DNA of 64,000 bases. It comes from Kineosporiaceae bacterium (GTDB lineage: Bacteria > Actinomycetota > Actinomycetes > Actinomycetales > Kineosporiaceae). The stretch is from the NCBI GenBank assembly GCA_016794595.1, contig JAEUJN010000043.1, positions 1 to 64,000 on the forward strand, given 5' to 3'. Below, in pieces: positions 14,738 to 23,875 of this stretch. A model generated the notes under the pieces. The model did not search any database. It saw only the letters and a program-made list of their open reading frames with translations, and was not told the DNA's origin. Made by a program: the position numbers and the translations under genes. Position 1 is the stretch's first letter. The number at the start of each line of letters is the position of its first letter.

Positions 14738-15908
14738 ACCGCACCTGGCCCACCAGGTCGCGGACGACGTCCAGCCGGTGGTCCACCTCGACCCGCCGCC
14801 GGGCGACGGGCCTCTCGAACCAGATCGGTTGCCAGGCGCCGTCACCGGTCAGCCCCCAGCCCCCCACCACGCGGCCGTCGACCCAGATGCTCGGCCCGGC
14901 GTTGCCGTTGCGGTCGAAGCAGCGTGAGGCCGAGGCGGGCAGGTACCAGTCCCGTTCCTTCCAGCCCATGACCGTCGGGTCGAGACCGGGGAGCACCGCC
15001 ACCCAGGGTTCCTCCTGCGGGGGATCGCCGTCCAGCAGGGGATCGTCGGCGGCCAGCCAGCCGCTGCCGCCGTCCAGGTCCACCGGCACTGCCTCGGCGT
15101 CCGCCAGCGCCCGGCGGGTCACGGTCGCGGTCCAGCCGAAGTACCACTGCAGGTCCGTGGTCGTGCCCGGGCCGAACCGGCTCAGCCACTGGTGAGCCAG
15201 ATCGCGCGCGGCCGGGCGGGCCTCCGGCGGCGCCCCGTCCGGGCCGAGCAGGGCACCCGGCAGCCAGCTCTCCATCGCCGCCCAGGTGTACTGGCCCGAG
15301 ATCCAGGTGCCCACCGGGCGGGTGCGCACGATGGCCCCCTCGAAACCGAGTTGCAGCAGCACCCGCGTGTGGGCGGCCTGGGTGCCCTCATAGGGCTTGC
15401 CGACGGCCAGGCGCAGCGGGTGCGCGAGCCGCGGAACCCGTTGTCCCAGAACGCGGGCCGTCATCGGCCCTTCGCTGCGCAGCAGCTCCAGCAGATCCGT
15501 GCGAGCCGCCGTGAGCCAGGCCTCGCCGTCCTCGATGCCGTTGTCGGCGAGCATGCCCAGCAGTCGCCGGTGCTGGGCGGCGGCGTAGCCGGCGGTCGTG
15601 GTGGCGTGCATGCGGGCCATCAGCTCGGGGGTGGTGACCCACAGCGTGCGCCGCATGGCGTGGTGGCGCAGCACCTGGCGCCGGTCGTAGAGCGCCGACT
15701 CGACGGCCGCGATCGACGGGGTGACCATCCGGGCCGCCGCGGACAGGTACACGCTGACCGGGTCGCTGGAGTGCAGCGCCAGCACGTCCCGGGCCAGCAC
15801 GGCGACGTCGTCCACGGCCCGGTGGGGCAGCAGCCGGTGCCGGTCGGCCAGCCGGGACCGGCGTTCGGCGGTGGACACGCGCAGCTTCACCCGCCCATGG
15901 TGGCCCAT
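14697..15908 (-). CDS. Winged-helix DNA-binding domain protein (HTH_42 / YcaQ-like)
   Basis: About 403 residues, matching the HTH_42 superfamily (AlkX/YcaQ relatives). Visible family features are LHSSDPVSVYLSAAAR near the N-terminus, RRTLWVTTPEL, the middle winged-helix region, and the C-terminal DPTVMGWKERDWYL and NGNAGPSIWVDGRVVGGW blocks. E. coli YcaQ is a DNA glycosylase that unhooks interstrand crosslinks; whether this distant relative has that activity is not known. The start is uncertain: ATG codons at 15920 and 15908 and a GTG at 15891 are possible. It diverges from the MFS carrier at 15963. Confidence 0.8.
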   Translation of the reverse strand: MGHHGRVKLRVSTAERRSRLADRHRLLPHRAVDDVAVLARDVLALHSSDPVSVYLSAAARMVTPSIAAVESALYDRRQVLRHHAMRRTLWVTTPELMARMHATTTAGYAAAQHRRLLGMLADNGIEDGEAWLTAARTDLLELLRSEGPMTARVLGQRVPRLAHPLRLAVGKPYEGTQAAHTRVLLQLGFEGAIVRTRPVGTWISGQYTWAAMESWLPGALLGPDGAPPEARPAARDLAHQWLSRFGPGTTTDLQWYFGWTATVTRRALADAEAVPVDLDGGSGWLAADDPLLDGDPPQEEPWVAVLPGLDPTVMGWKERDWYLPASASRCFDRNGNAGPSIWVDGRVVGGWGLTGDGAWQPIWFERPVARRRVEVDHRLDVVRDLVGQVRFSVRFPPPYHADL

Positions 15909-15950
15909 CTCCCCGACCATCCTGAGACCAGGAGCTCCCTCGCCGCCGCC

Positions 15951-15956
15951 TACACT
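15951..15956 (+). promoter_or_regulatory. -10 box (TACACT) for a leaderless MFS transcript
   Basis: TACACT, then GGGGCG, then the ATG at 15963: the same arrangement and the same hexamer as the MarR gene at 11348. Confidence 0.5.
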
Positions 15957-15962
15957 GGGGCG

Positions 15963-17327
15963 ATGCCCCGCCCCGCGACCCGACCGCCCACCCGATCTCG
16001 GATGGTGCACCGGGCCTGGCTGGTGGCGGCTGTCACCCTGGGCGCCCTGGTCACGGCGGCGGCGTTCCGGTCCTCGATCGGGGTGCTGATCGAGCCACTC
16101 GAGCAGGAGTTCGGCTGGTCCCGGGCCACCACCTCGGGCGCGGTGACCCTCAACCTCACCCTGTACGGCCTGATCGCGCCGTTCGCCGCCGCCCTGATGG
16201 AACGCTGGGGAATCCGGCGGGTGGTGGCTGCGGCCCTGGCGCTGGTCGGCGGTGCGAGTGCGCTGACGTTGCTGATGACCGCCGCCTGGCAGCTCTGGCT
16301 GCTCTGGGGGTTGATGATCGGCGTCGGCACCGGGTCGATGGCGCTGGTCTTCGGCGCCATCGTGGCCAACCGCTGGTTCGTGGCCCGGCGAGGGCTGGTG
16401 ACCGGCATCTTCTCCGCCGGCAACGCAACCGGGCAGCTGATCTTCCTGCCGGCGGTCGCCCGGGCGGTCGAGGGGCCCGGCTGGCGGTGGGCGGCGGGCG
16501 GGATCGCCCTCTACGCCGTCGTCATGATCCTCTTGGTGGTCACCTTCCTCGACGACCACCCGCGGGATCGGGGCCTGCTGCCGTACGGCGCGGGGGCGGG
16601 ATCCGCCCCCGACCCACCCTCCCCACCTCCCGGGGCGGGGGCGGTCGCCACCGCCCTGATCACCCTGCGGGACGCCGCCCGCTCATGGGCGTTCTGGGCC
16701 CTCGCGCTGACGTTCTTCGTCTGTGGCTGGTCCACCAACGGCCTGGTGCAAACCCACTTCGTGCCCGCTGCCCACGATCACGGCATGCCGACCACGACCG
16801 CCGCCGGCCTGCTGGCGGTCGTGGGCGTCTTCGACATCATCGGCACCCTGGCATCGGGCTGGCTGACCGATCGGGTCGACTCGCGCTACCTGCTGGTGGG
16901 CTACTACGGGCTGCGGGGACTCTCGCTGCTCGTCGTCCACCAGATGCTCTCGCCCACGGTCGAGCCCGGGCTGTGGGTGTTCATCGTGTTCTACGGGCTG
17001 GACTGGGTGGCCACCGTGCCTCCCACGGTGGCCTTGTGCCGCACGCACTTCGGGCTCGAGCGCTCCGGAGTGGTGTTCGGCTGGGTGTTCGCCGCCCACA
17101 TGGTCGGTGCCGGGGTGGGTGCCAGTGTCGCGGGCTGGATCCGAGCGAGTTCCGGCAGCTACCACGACGCGTGGATCGTGGCGGCCGAGCTGTGCCTGGT
17201 CGCCGCCGTGCTCAGTCGCACCATCCCGGTCGAGCGCCGGACGCCGTCGCCGGCCAACCGTGGCCGTGGCCGTGGCCGTGGCCGGGGCCGGGGCCGGGGC
17301 CGGGGCCGGGGCCGGGGCCGGGAGTAG
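15963..17327 (+). CDS. Major facilitator superfamily transporter with an Arg-Gly repeat tail
   Basis: 454-residue inner-membrane carrier with 12 predicted membrane segments and the oxalate/monocarboxylate-type pattern (FGWSRATTSGAVTL, loop motif WLTDRVDSRYLL). Substrate unknown. The last 23 residues are a pure (Arg-Gly) run ending in Glu, encoded by a hexanucleotide tandem repeat, an unusual cytoplasmic tail with about eleven positive charges. The start at 15963 is set by the -10 box 6 bases upstream. The stop is only 11 bases from the convergent gene at 17339. Confidence 0.9.
   Translation: MPRPATRPPTRSRMVHRAWLVAAVTLGALVTAAAFRSSIGVLIEPLEQEFGWSRATTSGAVTLNLTLYGLIAPFAAALMERWGIRRVVAAALALVGGASALTLLMTAAWQLWLLWGLMIGVGTGSMALVFGAIVANRWFVARRGLVTGIFSAGNATGQLIFLPAVARAVEGPGWRWAAGGIALYAVVMILLVVTFLDDHPRDRGLLPYGAGAGSAPDPPSPPPGAGAVATALITLRDAARSWAFWALALTFFVCGWSTNGLVQTHFVPAAHDHGMPTTTAAGLLAVVGVFDIIGTLASGWLTDRVDSRYLLVGYYGLRGLSLLVVHQMLSPTVEPGLWVFIVFYGLDWVATVPPTVALCRTHFGLERSGVVFGWVFAAHMVGAGVGASVAGWIRASSGSYHDAWIVAAELCLVAAVLSRTIPVERRTPSPANRGRGRGRGRGRGRGRGRGRGRE
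17259..17324 (+). repeat. Hexanucleotide tandem repeat encoding Arg-Gly tail
   Basis: Four copies of CGTGGC, six of CGGGGC and a final CGGGAG, inside the 3' end of the MFS gene. Copy-number change by slippage would lengthen or shorten the tail in frame without touching the membrane domain. Confidence 0.95.
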
Positions 17328-17338
17328 GGGAACTCGTC

Positions 17339-17941
17339 CTAGAGCTCGTCACTCACCTGATCACGCCCGGCGGCGGCCCGGTTGCGCGCCTGGACCAACG
17401 CGAGCCGGTCGGCGGTGCTCTCGTCGCGGTCCCGGGCCGACCAGTCCCGGTCGACCGCGGCCGGGCCCCGGTCGGCGGCGGCGTCCTCGACCGAGACCAC
17501 CCCGGCCCGCCGATCACGTTCGTCGGCGGCCACATCTCGGGCCCTGGCCGTCCTGTCCCGCAGATCGGCGGCCAGGTCCCTGAGGTTCGCGGCGCGCAGT
17601 ACGCGGTCCACCTCGGCATCGCGATCCCGCTGCCGGAGGTCCCGCTCATCGGCCGTGACGTCCCGGGCGTCAGCGTGCTGCTCCCGCGCATCCGCCGCGG
17701 CCTCCCGCGCATCCGCGGCCGCCTCCCGCGCATCCGCGGCCGCCTCCCGCGCATCCGCCGCGGCGTCCCGCGCGTCTGCGGCCGCCTCCCGCTCACCGGC
17801 CATCGGGGCGCGTTCCGCCGCGACCTGATCGTGTTCGACCGCCGACCGGACCCGTTCCTGCCAGCGACGTTCCAGCTCGGACAGGCGCGTCCCCGGGTCG
17901 TCGGTGGCCGAGGGCGACCCGGGCGTCGATTCCTCTGGCAT
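17339..17941 (-). CDS. Low-complexity ADAREAA-repeat protein, function unknown
   Basis: 200-residue, highly charged and almost certainly fully helical protein made largely of Ala, Asp, Arg and Glu. The centre is a run of 7-residue repeats (ADAREAA) followed by looser copies (ADERDLR, ADLRDRTA, ADERDRRA). Such periodic helices could form a long coiled coil or a single alpha-helix rod. No signal peptide, no membrane segment and no known domain. GGAGGA lies 3-8 bases before the ATG at 17941. Similar repeat proteins occur scattered in actinobacteria, but I know no assigned function. Confidence 0.7.
   Translation of the reverse strand: MPEESTPGSPSATDDPGTRLSELERRWQERVRSAVEHDQVAAERAPMAGEREAAADARDAAADAREAAADAREAAADAREAAADAREQHADARDVTADERDLRQRDRDAEVDRVLRAANLRDLAADLRDRTARARDVAADERDRRAGVVSVEDAAADRGPAAVDRDWSARDRDESTADRLALVQARNRAAAGRDQVSDEL
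17680..17800 (-). repeat. 21-bp tandem repeat inside the ADAREAA gene
   Basis: The plus-strand word GCATCCGC recurs at 17688, 17709, 17730 and 17751, with a diverged copy at 17772, giving an exact 21-bp period that encodes one 7-residue unit per copy. Confidence 0.85.
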
Positions 17942-21716: not shown

Positions 21717-21745
21717 AGTCTGGTGCGCGACCGGCTCAACTCCAA
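21717..21745 (-). promoter_or_regulatory. Promoter of the amidase gene (TTGGAG-N17-CAGACT)
   Basis: On the minus strand TTGGAG at 21740-21745 and CAGACT at 21717-21722 are separated by 17 bp, with 6 bases to the ATG at 21710. The -35 box overlaps the last codons of the Fic gene. Confidence 0.5.
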
Positions 21746-22959
21746 GTGTCGGTCACCGTGCGGGCGACCGGGCCGGCCTCGACGTCCGCATCGGCATACG
21801 AGAAGGGCCTCTCCAGGATGTCGAGCACCGTTGCCGAGACCCAGTAGAGCTGCCCACCACGCCCGATCGCCTGCGGGTCGCCCAGCCAGCCACGGGCCTG
21901 GGCATCTTTGATCAAATTGCGAGCGCCCTGGTTCGTGATGCCCAAGTGGTTCTGGACCCGGCGCACGGTGAGGTAGGGGTTGGTGAAGATCAAGTCCACC
22001 AGGCCGGCGATCATGGAGCGTGAGCGCGCCGCGTCCTGGAGGTACTCCTCCCTGAGCCGCACCACCAGCCCGGCGCGATGGACGGCGTCGTCGGCAGACC
22101 TGGCGATCGCGGTCAGGAAGAACTGGATCCACTCCTGGATCTCGCCTCGCTCCCGGACCCCTTGGAGCAGGGAGTAGTAGGTGTTCCGGTGTGCCTCGAG
22201 GTAACCGGACATGTACAGCAGCGGGGTCGTCAGTCGCCGCTCTTGCACCAGCATCAGACCCACCAGCAGTCGTCCGATCCGCCCGTTGCCGTCGAGGAAG
22301 GGGTGGATCGTCTCGAACTGGTAGTGCATCAGCGCCGCACGGACCAGCACCGGCATCCGGCTGGGCTCGTTGACGAAGCGCTCCCAGTCGATCATCAGAT
22401 CGGGGAGGGACTCCGGAAGGGGCGGTACGTAGGTTGCGCTGTCCGGACTGTCCGTCGGGCTGCCGATCCACACCGGCGAGGTACGGATCTCGCCGGGCAG
22501 CTTCTCCGCCCCGCGCACGCCGCTCACCAGCTCGCGATGGGCCTGTCTGATCAGCCGCTGGGTGAGCGGCAGGGTGGCGAGCAGGCGGTATCCGGTCTCG
22601 CTGGCTCGCAGGTACCGCTTCACCTCCTCCACGTCCGCATCGACAGTCGCCGCGCCGTCCGCGGCCTCCGCCTGCATCACGTTCGCCAGCGACGTGTTCG
22701 TCCCCTCGATCCTCGAGCTGGCCAGGGCCTCACGCGTCGAGTACGGCCCGACGAGGAGCTGCGGATTCCGGATCAGCTGCCCCAGACCGTGCAGATGACC
22801 CAGTGAGCTGTCAGCCGTCGACAGGGCGAGAATCGTCGCCTCCGAGAGCTCCACCGTGCGCGGCAGCGGATTCGGCGCGTAGAACCAGAACGCCCACCGA
22901 TCTCCCGGTCGGCGCATCGGCTTTCCGAAGATGGTCTCCGCATAGCTGCTTGGGTCCAT
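21736..22959 (-). CDS. Fic family protein (AMP-transferase type), self-inhibited class II
   Basis: 407-residue Fic enzyme that is expected to transfer AMP (or a related nucleotide group) to hydroxyls of target proteins. The active site HPFLDGNGRIGR (residues 219-230) is intact, with catalytic His219. An inhibitory helix motif, S-x-x-x-E-G (Ser81 to Gly86), precedes the Fic fold, the layout of class II Fic proteins that are auto-inhibited by a Glu blocking ATP. A Fic_N domain lies before, and a winged-helix domain after (RRVQNHLGITNQGARNLIKDAQ), which could bind DNA such as its own upstream array. No antitoxin gene is adjacent. The start at 22959 is set by the promoter 6 bases upstream. Confidence 0.95.
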   Translation of the reverse strand: MDPSSYAETIFGKPMRRPGDRWAFWFYAPNPLPRTVELSEATILALSTADSSLGHLHGLGQLIRNPQLLVGPYSTREALASSRIEGTNTSLANVMQAEAADGAATVDADVEEVKRYLRASETGYRLLATLPLTQRLIRQAHRELVSGVRGAEKLPGEIRTSPVWIGSPTDSPDSATYVPPLPESLPDLMIDWERFVNEPSRMPVLVRAALMHYQFETIHPFLDGNGRIGRLLVGLMLVQERRLTTPLLYMSGYLEAHRNTYYSLLQGVRERGEIQEWIQFFLTAIARSADDAVHRAGLVVRLREEYLQDAARSRSMIAGLVDLIFTNPYLTVRRVQNHLGITNQGARNLIKDAQARGWLGDPQAIGRGGQLYWVSATVLDILERPFSYADADVEAGPVARTVTDTWS

Positions 22960-22965
22960 GTACGG

Positions 22966-22994
22966 AGAGTAGTGGAGGAGTCTTCACTCTCCAA
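22966..22994 (-). promoter_or_regulatory. Promoter of the Fic gene (TTGGAG-N17-TACTCT, leaderless)
   Basis: On the minus strand TTGGAG (22989-22994) and TACTCT (22966-22971) are exactly 17 bp apart, and 6 bases separate the -10 box from the ATG at 22959. The -35 box reads like one more member of the GTTGGA family found upstream. Confidence 0.6.
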
Positions 22995-23010
22995 GGCATG
23001 GGCTCGCCTC

Positions 23011-23208
23011 GTTGGAGTTTCTGTTGGATCCAGCGTTGGAGTTTCAGGTGAGATCAGCGAATAGATCATGAAAACTGGGCCCGACGCTCCAACAAATCGA
23101 GGGGTTTCGTTGGAACGTCACCTGTTACCTCCAACGTCTGTTGCATCCCGAGCCCGACGCTCCAACAAACAGGGGGGGTTCGTTGGAACGTCAGGCTGAC
23201 GCTCCAAC
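23011..23208. repeat. Phased GTTGGA/TCCAAC array upstream of the Fic gene
   Basis: GTTGGA occurs at 23011, 23023 and 23035, a 12-bp period. Further out two triads of alternating TCCAAC, GTTGGA, TCCAAC occur at 23088/23109/23130 and 23161/23182/23203, each step exactly 21 bp. The inner boxes read GACGCTCCAAC and GTTGGAACGTC and form 37-base hairpins at 23083-23119 and 23156-23192; the surrounding 42 bp are repeated almost unchanged 73 bp apart. This fills most of the gap 22960-23287, where I see no gene. A 21-bp step is two helical turns, as expected for a cooperative DNA-binding protein. Confidence 0.85.
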
Positions 23209-23287: not shown

Positions 23288-23875
23288 TCAGCCCGGCGTC
23301 CCGCCACATGCCCGCCAGACCAGGCTCGCCGTCCGGTGCGCCCAGTCCGCGGGAGCGCGCCGCCCCACCAGGGCGATCGCGTACCACGACCCGGTCAGCA
23401 GCGACCCGGCGATGTCCAGGTCGGCATCGGCATCGATCAGCCCACTGTCACGTGCCGCCAGCAGGCACGCCCGGATCCGGGCCCGGCGCGGCGCCACGAT
23501 CTGCTCGGCGTACACCTGCCGGACGGCGGGCTCGACGCCGTCGGTGAGCATCAGCCCGACCAGCGGCAACGCGCCCGCAGCGGTGATGCAGTGCCGGAAG
23601 TGCTCCAGCTCGGTCACCAGATCGGTGAACGGCTCCCCGATCACCTCGGGCGCCTCGACCGCAGCCAGCCGGGCCACGGCGCCGACGGCCAGTGACACCT
23701 TGTCCGGCCAGCGCCGGTACAGCGCCGGGCGGGTCGTGCCGGCCTCGGCCGCGACCGCGGCGAGGGAGAGCCCGCTCAGCCCGTCCCGGGCCAGGTGGCG
23801 CAGCGCGACGTCCAGCACGGCGTCGTCGATCGCCCGGTCGCGGGGGCGACCCGGCGCACGCATCCGATCTGGCAC
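23288..23875 (-). CDS. TetR family transcriptional regulator
   Basis: 195-residue repressor. The N-terminal HTH (residues 15-60) shows AVLDVALRHLARDGLSGLSLAAVAAEAGTTRPALYRRWPDK, the classical TetR pattern; the C-terminal domain would bind a ligand and dimerise. The GTG at 23875 is chosen since TAACCT lies 6 bases upstream; an ATG at 23863 is an alternative. It diverges from the DJ-1/F420-reductase/LtrA operon and CGTTAC-type operator half-sites cover both promoters, so it most likely represses itself and the operon. The ligand is unknown. Confidence 0.92.
   Translation of the reverse strand: MPDRMRAPGRPRDRAIDDAVLDVALRHLARDGLSGLSLAAVAAEAGTTRPALYRRWPDKVSLAVGAVARLAAVEAPEVIGEPFTDLVTELEHFRHCITAAGALPLVGLMLTDGVEPAVRQVYAEQIVAPRRARIRACLLAARDSGLIDADADLDIAGSLLTGSWYAIALVGRRAPADWAHRTASLVWRACGGTPG

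Follow-up and report, generated by a model that had tools for sequence, protein, structure and literature searches.

The helix-turn-helix (HTH) ends of many Fic enzymes have been a puzzle since at least 2009, when it was suggested that these domains may regulate fic expression (Kinch et al., 2009; PMC2686095). The closest described case is CccR (YPK_0951; PDB 7XUX) of Yersinia pseudotuberculosis, a Fic-HTH protein that represses its own gene through the inverted boxes AGATAATCAT-N26-ATGATAATCT near the -35 and -10 elements (PMC9755527). A 2026 review cites CccR for self-regulation via a DNA-binding domain (PMC12894286), and in the literature searched it is the only Fic-HTH protein with a defined operator. 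For SoFic (Shewanella SO_4266; PDB 3EQX/3ZCN) neither an operator nor an array was found reported in this literature. The related EcSofic is a phage-defence protein that is toxic when its expression is leaky (PMC12249575). CbFic2 of Coxiella burnetii (PDB 8CIL), a class II Fic protein with a DNA-binding winged HTH, is proposed to change from an AMPylating monomer to a deAMPylating dimer on DNA (PMC10628234); it was assayed on random DNA, no operator is known for it, and its target is the host histone H3. Finally, Phd-Doc, in which Doc has the Fic fold, and AbiE control their own promoters through several inverted repeats.

The DNA analyzed here (the window) comprises positions 1–64,000 of the forward strand of contig JAEUJN010000043.1 from a Kineosporiaceae bacterium (GCA_016794595.1; genome of 4.95 Mb). 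It contains a gene for a class II Fic protein with a C-terminal HTH, preceded by short inverted boxes near its own putative -35 and -10 elements, in all of which it resembles CccR. Like CccR, an autorepressor acting as a dimer, the window Fic is proposed to act as a dimer on its own gene. However, CccR has a single dyad with 10-bp arms and a 26-bp spacer, whereas the window carries an array with 15–17-bp spacers, so that the protein would be CccR-like in action with a different type of operator. Furthermore, CccR forms a back-to-back dimer, shares 21% identity with the window Fic in the aligned fold and is a T6SS effector, of which we saw no sign for the window Fic. SoFic has the same Fic_N-Fic-winged HTH layout and inhibitory motif and is the best structural match, but it is only 27% identical to the window Fic, which falls below the NCBI cut-off for SoFic. 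In Phd-Doc and AbiE a separate antitoxin binds DNA, whereas here enzyme and repressor would be united in one chain.

The preliminary description of the locus knew of no system with this arrangement. This holds for the array, as CccR has one dyad only, but not for self-repression by a Fic-HTH protein through one dyad, which is already known from CccR (PMC9755527). The phased arrays, their breadth, the relation between residues and boxes, and the arrays downstream of the gene in three genomes are new; neither Fic operator arrays nor a relation between helix and box were found described in the literature searched (subscription papers and preprints lay outside it).

Fic Gene and Its Product

The features of the locus are as follows (positions in the window):

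21736..22959, minus strand: Fic gene, 407 aa, with Fic_N, Fic and C-terminal winged HTH (Pfam, PADLOC, AlphaFold2, PDB match)
22966..22971, minus strand: putative -10 element TACTCT, 6 bp before the ATG (sequence and relatives)
22989..22994, minus strand: putative -35 element TTGGAG, overlapping box 10, 17-bp spacer to TACTCT (sequence)
22990..22995, plus strand: box 10, TCCAAG, one half of the promoter-proximal dyad 22990–23016
23011..23016, plus strand: box GTTGGA (sequence)
23023..23028, plus strand: box GTTGGA, 12-bp step (sequence)
23035..23040, plus strand: box GTTGGA, 12-bp step (sequence)
23088..23114, no strand: dyad TCCAAC-N15-GTTGGA, boxes 23088 and 23109
23130..23135, plus strand: box TCCAAC, 21 bp from 23109
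23140..23145, plus strand: putative degenerate box GTTGCA (sequence and the 20-bp offset, TTGCA to TCCAA, to 23161)
23161..23187, no strand: dyad TCCAAC-N15-GTTGGA, boxes 23161 and 23182, 73-bp duplicate of 23088–23114
23203..23208, plus strand: box TCCAAC, 21 bp from 23182
23288..23875, minus strand: TetR-family gene (Pfam), upstream of the array and in the same direction as Fic, regarded as outside the system

The Fic product is predicted to be a protein-AMPylating enzyme of the type linked to phage defence. Its translation contains the Fic motif HPFx[DE]GNGRxxR as HPFLDGNGRIGR (Pfam Fic, 4.8e-19) and the class II inhibitory motif [ST]xxxE[GN] as SSRIEGT, in which S81, I84, E85 and T87 are invariant. 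PADLOC assigned the protein to SoFic (E 5.6e-106), and it scored 172 bits against the NCBI SoFic equivalog with its cut-off of 550. The HTH gave only a weak match in Pfam. In the AlphaFold2 model (pLDDT 89) its helices are located at residues 332–339 and 343–355 and a wing strand at 371–374; the second helix, the recognition helix, lies in the sequence TNQGARNLI.... The top PDB matches of the model in Foldseek were SoFic chains (TM 0.77–0.78), with CccR and CbFic2 further down. Both the C-terminal winged HTH and the overall SoFic fold are thus present.

Array of Boxes and Putative Promoter

The nine boxes of the preliminary description were all recovered in the sequence at the positions and with the 12- and 21-bp steps it had given: GTTGGA at 23011, 23023, 23035, 23109 and 23182, and TCCAAC at 23088, 23130, 23161 and 23203. 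Nine boxes in the 329-bp region compare with a mean of 0.27 and a maximum of 3 in 2000 dinucleotide shuffles, and all five exact copies of GTTGGANCGTC in the 64 kb are inside the array. The suggestion that the -35 element forms a tenth box proved well founded, since TCCAAG at 22990 lies exactly 21 bp from 23011 and the resulting dyad is unique to the array. With this box the array spans 22990 to 23208; a further, degenerate box, GTTGCA at 23140, probably represents the eleventh.

The dyad patterns were searched across the whole genome. TCCAA-N17-TTGGA occurs three times, always in the array (22990, 23088 and 23161), and two of the three TTGGA-N15-TCCAA sites are located there as well. We considered a regulon beyond the array and set it aside: the only full dyad elsewhere is the third TTGGA-N15-TCCAA site (C8:34304), which is regarded as a chance occurrence.

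The two embedded 37-base hairpins noticed earlier were located at 23083–23119 and 23156–23192, within two 42-nt copies (starting at 23079 and 23152) that are 90% identical and lie 73 bp apart. These units represent a 73-bp tandem duplication. Helical phasing of the boxes in the window peaks at 10.6 bp, a score equalled by nine of 1000 random placements when the window is taken alone.

On the minus strand TTGGAG, 17 bp, TACTCT, 6 bp and the ATG form a putative leaderless Fic promoter. Because a sigma-70 consensus scan detected neither a promoter nor a terminator, we infer this promoter from its position and from the relatives, which have TAAGTT, TAGTTT or TAGTAT at the place of TACTCT, ending about 7 bp before the start codon. 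The inverted boxes overlap this putative promoter of the Fic gene itself.

Conservation of Arrays Before Orthologous Fic Genes

One scan of genome contigs yielded 80 relatives (individual loci are cited by labels such as L067, with coordinates in their own numbering). Arrays of the same boxes precede orthologous Fic genes in Nocardioides, Aeromicrobium, Phytoactinopolyspora, Actinophytocola, Tsukamurella, Sinomonas, Microbacterium, Gulosibacter, Austwickia, Propionibacterium and others. Dozens of loci across numerous Actinomycetota genera show the layout beside unrelated neighbour genes; except among close Nocardioides kin, no neighbour gene but Fic is common to the loci.

Among 29 relatives with an NQ-type helix, TTGGA occurs on average 4.07 times within the 300 bp before Fic, whereas the remaining 300-bp tiles of these loci average 0.24 (p 2e-34). 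The steps between adjacent boxes cluster at 20 bp (TTGGA to TCCAA), 21–22 bp (TCCAA to TTGGA) and 31 bp (same orientation), and the summed steps of 42, 51–53 and 73 bp also repeat across relatives. Across 30 relatives the phase score reaches 0.815 at its 10.3-bp peak, and none of 1000 random placements exceeded 0.458. The last box stands between -36 and -39 in 25 of 30 loci, most often 37 bp upstream of a leaderless start codon. Among six Nocardioides, the -10 element and the majority of box positions are invariant while the intervening sequence varies.

Thus, the comparison with other genomes that the preliminary description had proposed came out in its favour: boxes and spacing are kept beside orthologous Fic genes, with variable sequence between them. 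Its view that bound proteins would line up on one face of the DNA is supported by the 10.3-bp phasing conserved in relatives, but the 12-bp triplet of the window (23011, 23023 and 23035) does not fully keep the helical phase of the other boxes.

Relation of Box Sequence to the Recognition Helix

The box variants TTGGA, TTGCA, TTACA and TTATA were found among the orthologues, and they follow the start of the recognition helix. TNQ, SNQ, SDQ and TNH pair with TTGGA, TPQ and STQ with TTGCA, SAP and SRP with TTACA, and TQP and SQP with TTATA. The association between box class and residues 343–344 has a permutation p of 2e-4 (42 clusters). In a scan of all Fic columns, run without structural knowledge, residue 343 was the best predictor of the box (z 12.4), followed by residue 344 (z 9.0); only afterwards did AlphaFold2 place both at the start of the recognition helix.

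The rule was fixed in advance, when the further loci had yet to be fetched and neither helices nor box classes had been inspected in the earlier, distant loci L005–L031; it was scored on the most enriched of the 16 TTnnA classes. It gave the right top class in 13 of 18 held-out loci and 11 of 16 clusters (permutation p 5e-5), including loci of about 30% identity with SRPT helices, and failed in the remaining five (L114, L014, L020, L027 and L030). In the distant L114 (46%), an array of CTTGTCGG/CCGACAAG boxes occupies the 180-bp stretch upstream of the ATG (at about 1440 in the oriented locus); its helix SPQG with CTTGTCGG boxes is a break of the rule.

When the HTH columns were left out of the tree, changes of the box from TTGGA to TTGCA or TTACA coincided with replacement of N343 by P, T or A. 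Within the TTGGA clade such switches led to TTGCA in L060, in L045 and in L039 with L054, and to TTACA in L048 with L062. A tree-aware sign test had four to five independent pairs, too few to reach 0.05, with few pairs in the wrong direction.

Single Dyads, Other Palindromes and Downstream Arrays

Some orthologues carry one dyad only, so an array seems dispensable for regulation. Palindromes with box steps of about 18–23 bp also occur near the start of Fic genes whose helices differ, among them genes from archaea, Chloroflexi and Dependentiae; steps of 20–23 bp were counted 32 times versus 7.7 in shuffles (maximum 16). A single dyad therefore looks like the general state and arrays like its expansion, clearest in Actinomycetota. 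The analysis suggests that self-repression is the shared function of the Fic HTH domain in bacteria and archaea. Loci L005 and L115–L120, with THR(A/S/T)A-type helices, share another palindrome, GTGATAC...GTATCAC or a close one, at a similar place upstream of Fic. Plasmid homologues occur in Thermus, Haloarcula, Picosynechococcus and Phyllobacterium.

Arrays with 20/22/31-bp steps were also found immediately or a short way downstream of the Fic gene in Kutzneria (L047, 4171–4320), Amycolatopsis (L067, 4166–4480) and a Propionibacteriaceae MAG (L063, 2269–2335). In L067 the array is built of 73-bp tandem repeats, and a gene for a phage-type integrase follows after about 0.7 kb. In L063 (2269–3543) the downstream array is followed by a copy of the Fic-type promoter end (CAGTTGTAGG) and a 24-codon ORF, and then by genes for a DNA-binding antitoxin-like and a PIN-like protein as judged by eye (Pfam found only DUF6011 in the latter). 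These downstream arrays cannot occlude the promoter of fic; they may have an additional role, e.g., looping or storage.

Proposed Autorepression and Alternative Explanations

We consider it highly likely that the array serves as the Fic operator and that Fic represses itself through the helically phased boxes. The bound protein is very probably Fic itself, acting through its winged helix on its own promoter, because the box class follows residues 343–344 and this rule held in most of the new loci. The control of the gene by its own product, put forward in the preliminary description, gains support both from the conservation of boxes and spacing and from the change of the boxes with the recognition helix. 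Fic dimers would bind the TCCAAC-N15-GTTGGA dyads via the C-terminal winged helix; the first two residues of the recognition helix, N343 and Q344, would read those bases of TTGGA that vary. With two or three helical turns between boxes, adjacent dimers would be aligned on one DNA face and might bind cooperatively. Bound Fic would cover the -35 element, and in most relatives the -10 element too, of the leaderless promoter; the enzyme would thereby repress its own synthesis and its level would stay low. The array may additionally store bound Fic.

If so, predicted cognate sites are now at hand for dozens of Fic proteins, the spacing rule of 20/22/31 bp predicts stacking of dimers on DNA, and the relation of two residues to two bases is testable by swaps. 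Such operators might also serve for expression control of Fic enzymes, whose cloning is difficult owing to the toxicity of leaky expression (reported for EcSofic; PMC12249575).

A possible but rather unlikely extension, drawn by analogy with the proposal for CbFic2 on DNA, is that the array acts as a DNA reservoir that holds the toxic AMPylator in a bound, dimeric state, inactive or deAMPylating. DNA would then take the place of the antitoxin, and active enzyme would be set free once a phage attack led to loss, replication or degradation of the locus. Consistent with this idea are the surplus of sites and the arrays located after the gene in L047, L067 and L063.

That Fic binds the array yet activates the promoter, or switches between activation and repression with its AMPylation state, appears unlikely. 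The in-phase boxes do reach far upstream of the promoter, as in some activator sites, and the -10 and -35 elements are poor. However, the nearest box overlaps the -35 element, the last dyad in relatives covers both -35 and -10, which is a repressor position, and CccR, the sole tested relative, represses (PMC9755527).

It is very improbable that another host regulator binds the array, be it a global factor or the neighbouring TetR protein, which the preliminary description had named as a candidate. The TetR gene adjoins the array in the window but is not a common neighbour across loci, so we found no support for its product as the binder. Moreover, residues 343–344 track the box variants better than all other Fic columns, and the boxes before Fic differ by species, which a shared global factor does not explain.

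The hairpins hardly seem to work as RNA, whether as a structured leader or as a small RNA. Folding of the strand is strong (z -5.9), but the inverted boxes of any array must fold, and the putative promoter is leaderless and downstream of the array. The small-RNA alternative raised earlier drew no support from the Rfam scan, which gave one chance match only, and no terminator was detected in the scan; besides, the boxes are both direct and inverted, and RNA does not need their conserved helical phase.

Very little speaks for a REP-like repeat, an attachment or partition site or another mobile element placed there by chance, or for the phage-related site also proposed previously: the window has its 73-bp tandem duplication and L067 its 73-bp tandem array near an integrase gene, but the dyads are absent elsewhere in the genome save one isolated site, dozens of loci in numerous genera have arrays together with Fic, and phage records gave only five distant, weak Fic matches unrelated to this clade.

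Other Features of the Window

Two features stand out in the region 17170–17941. An MFS-like ORF at 15192–17327 ends in a low-complexity GRGRGRGRGR tail, and on the opposite strand a repetitive ADAREAAADAREAAA protein is encoded at 17339–17941.
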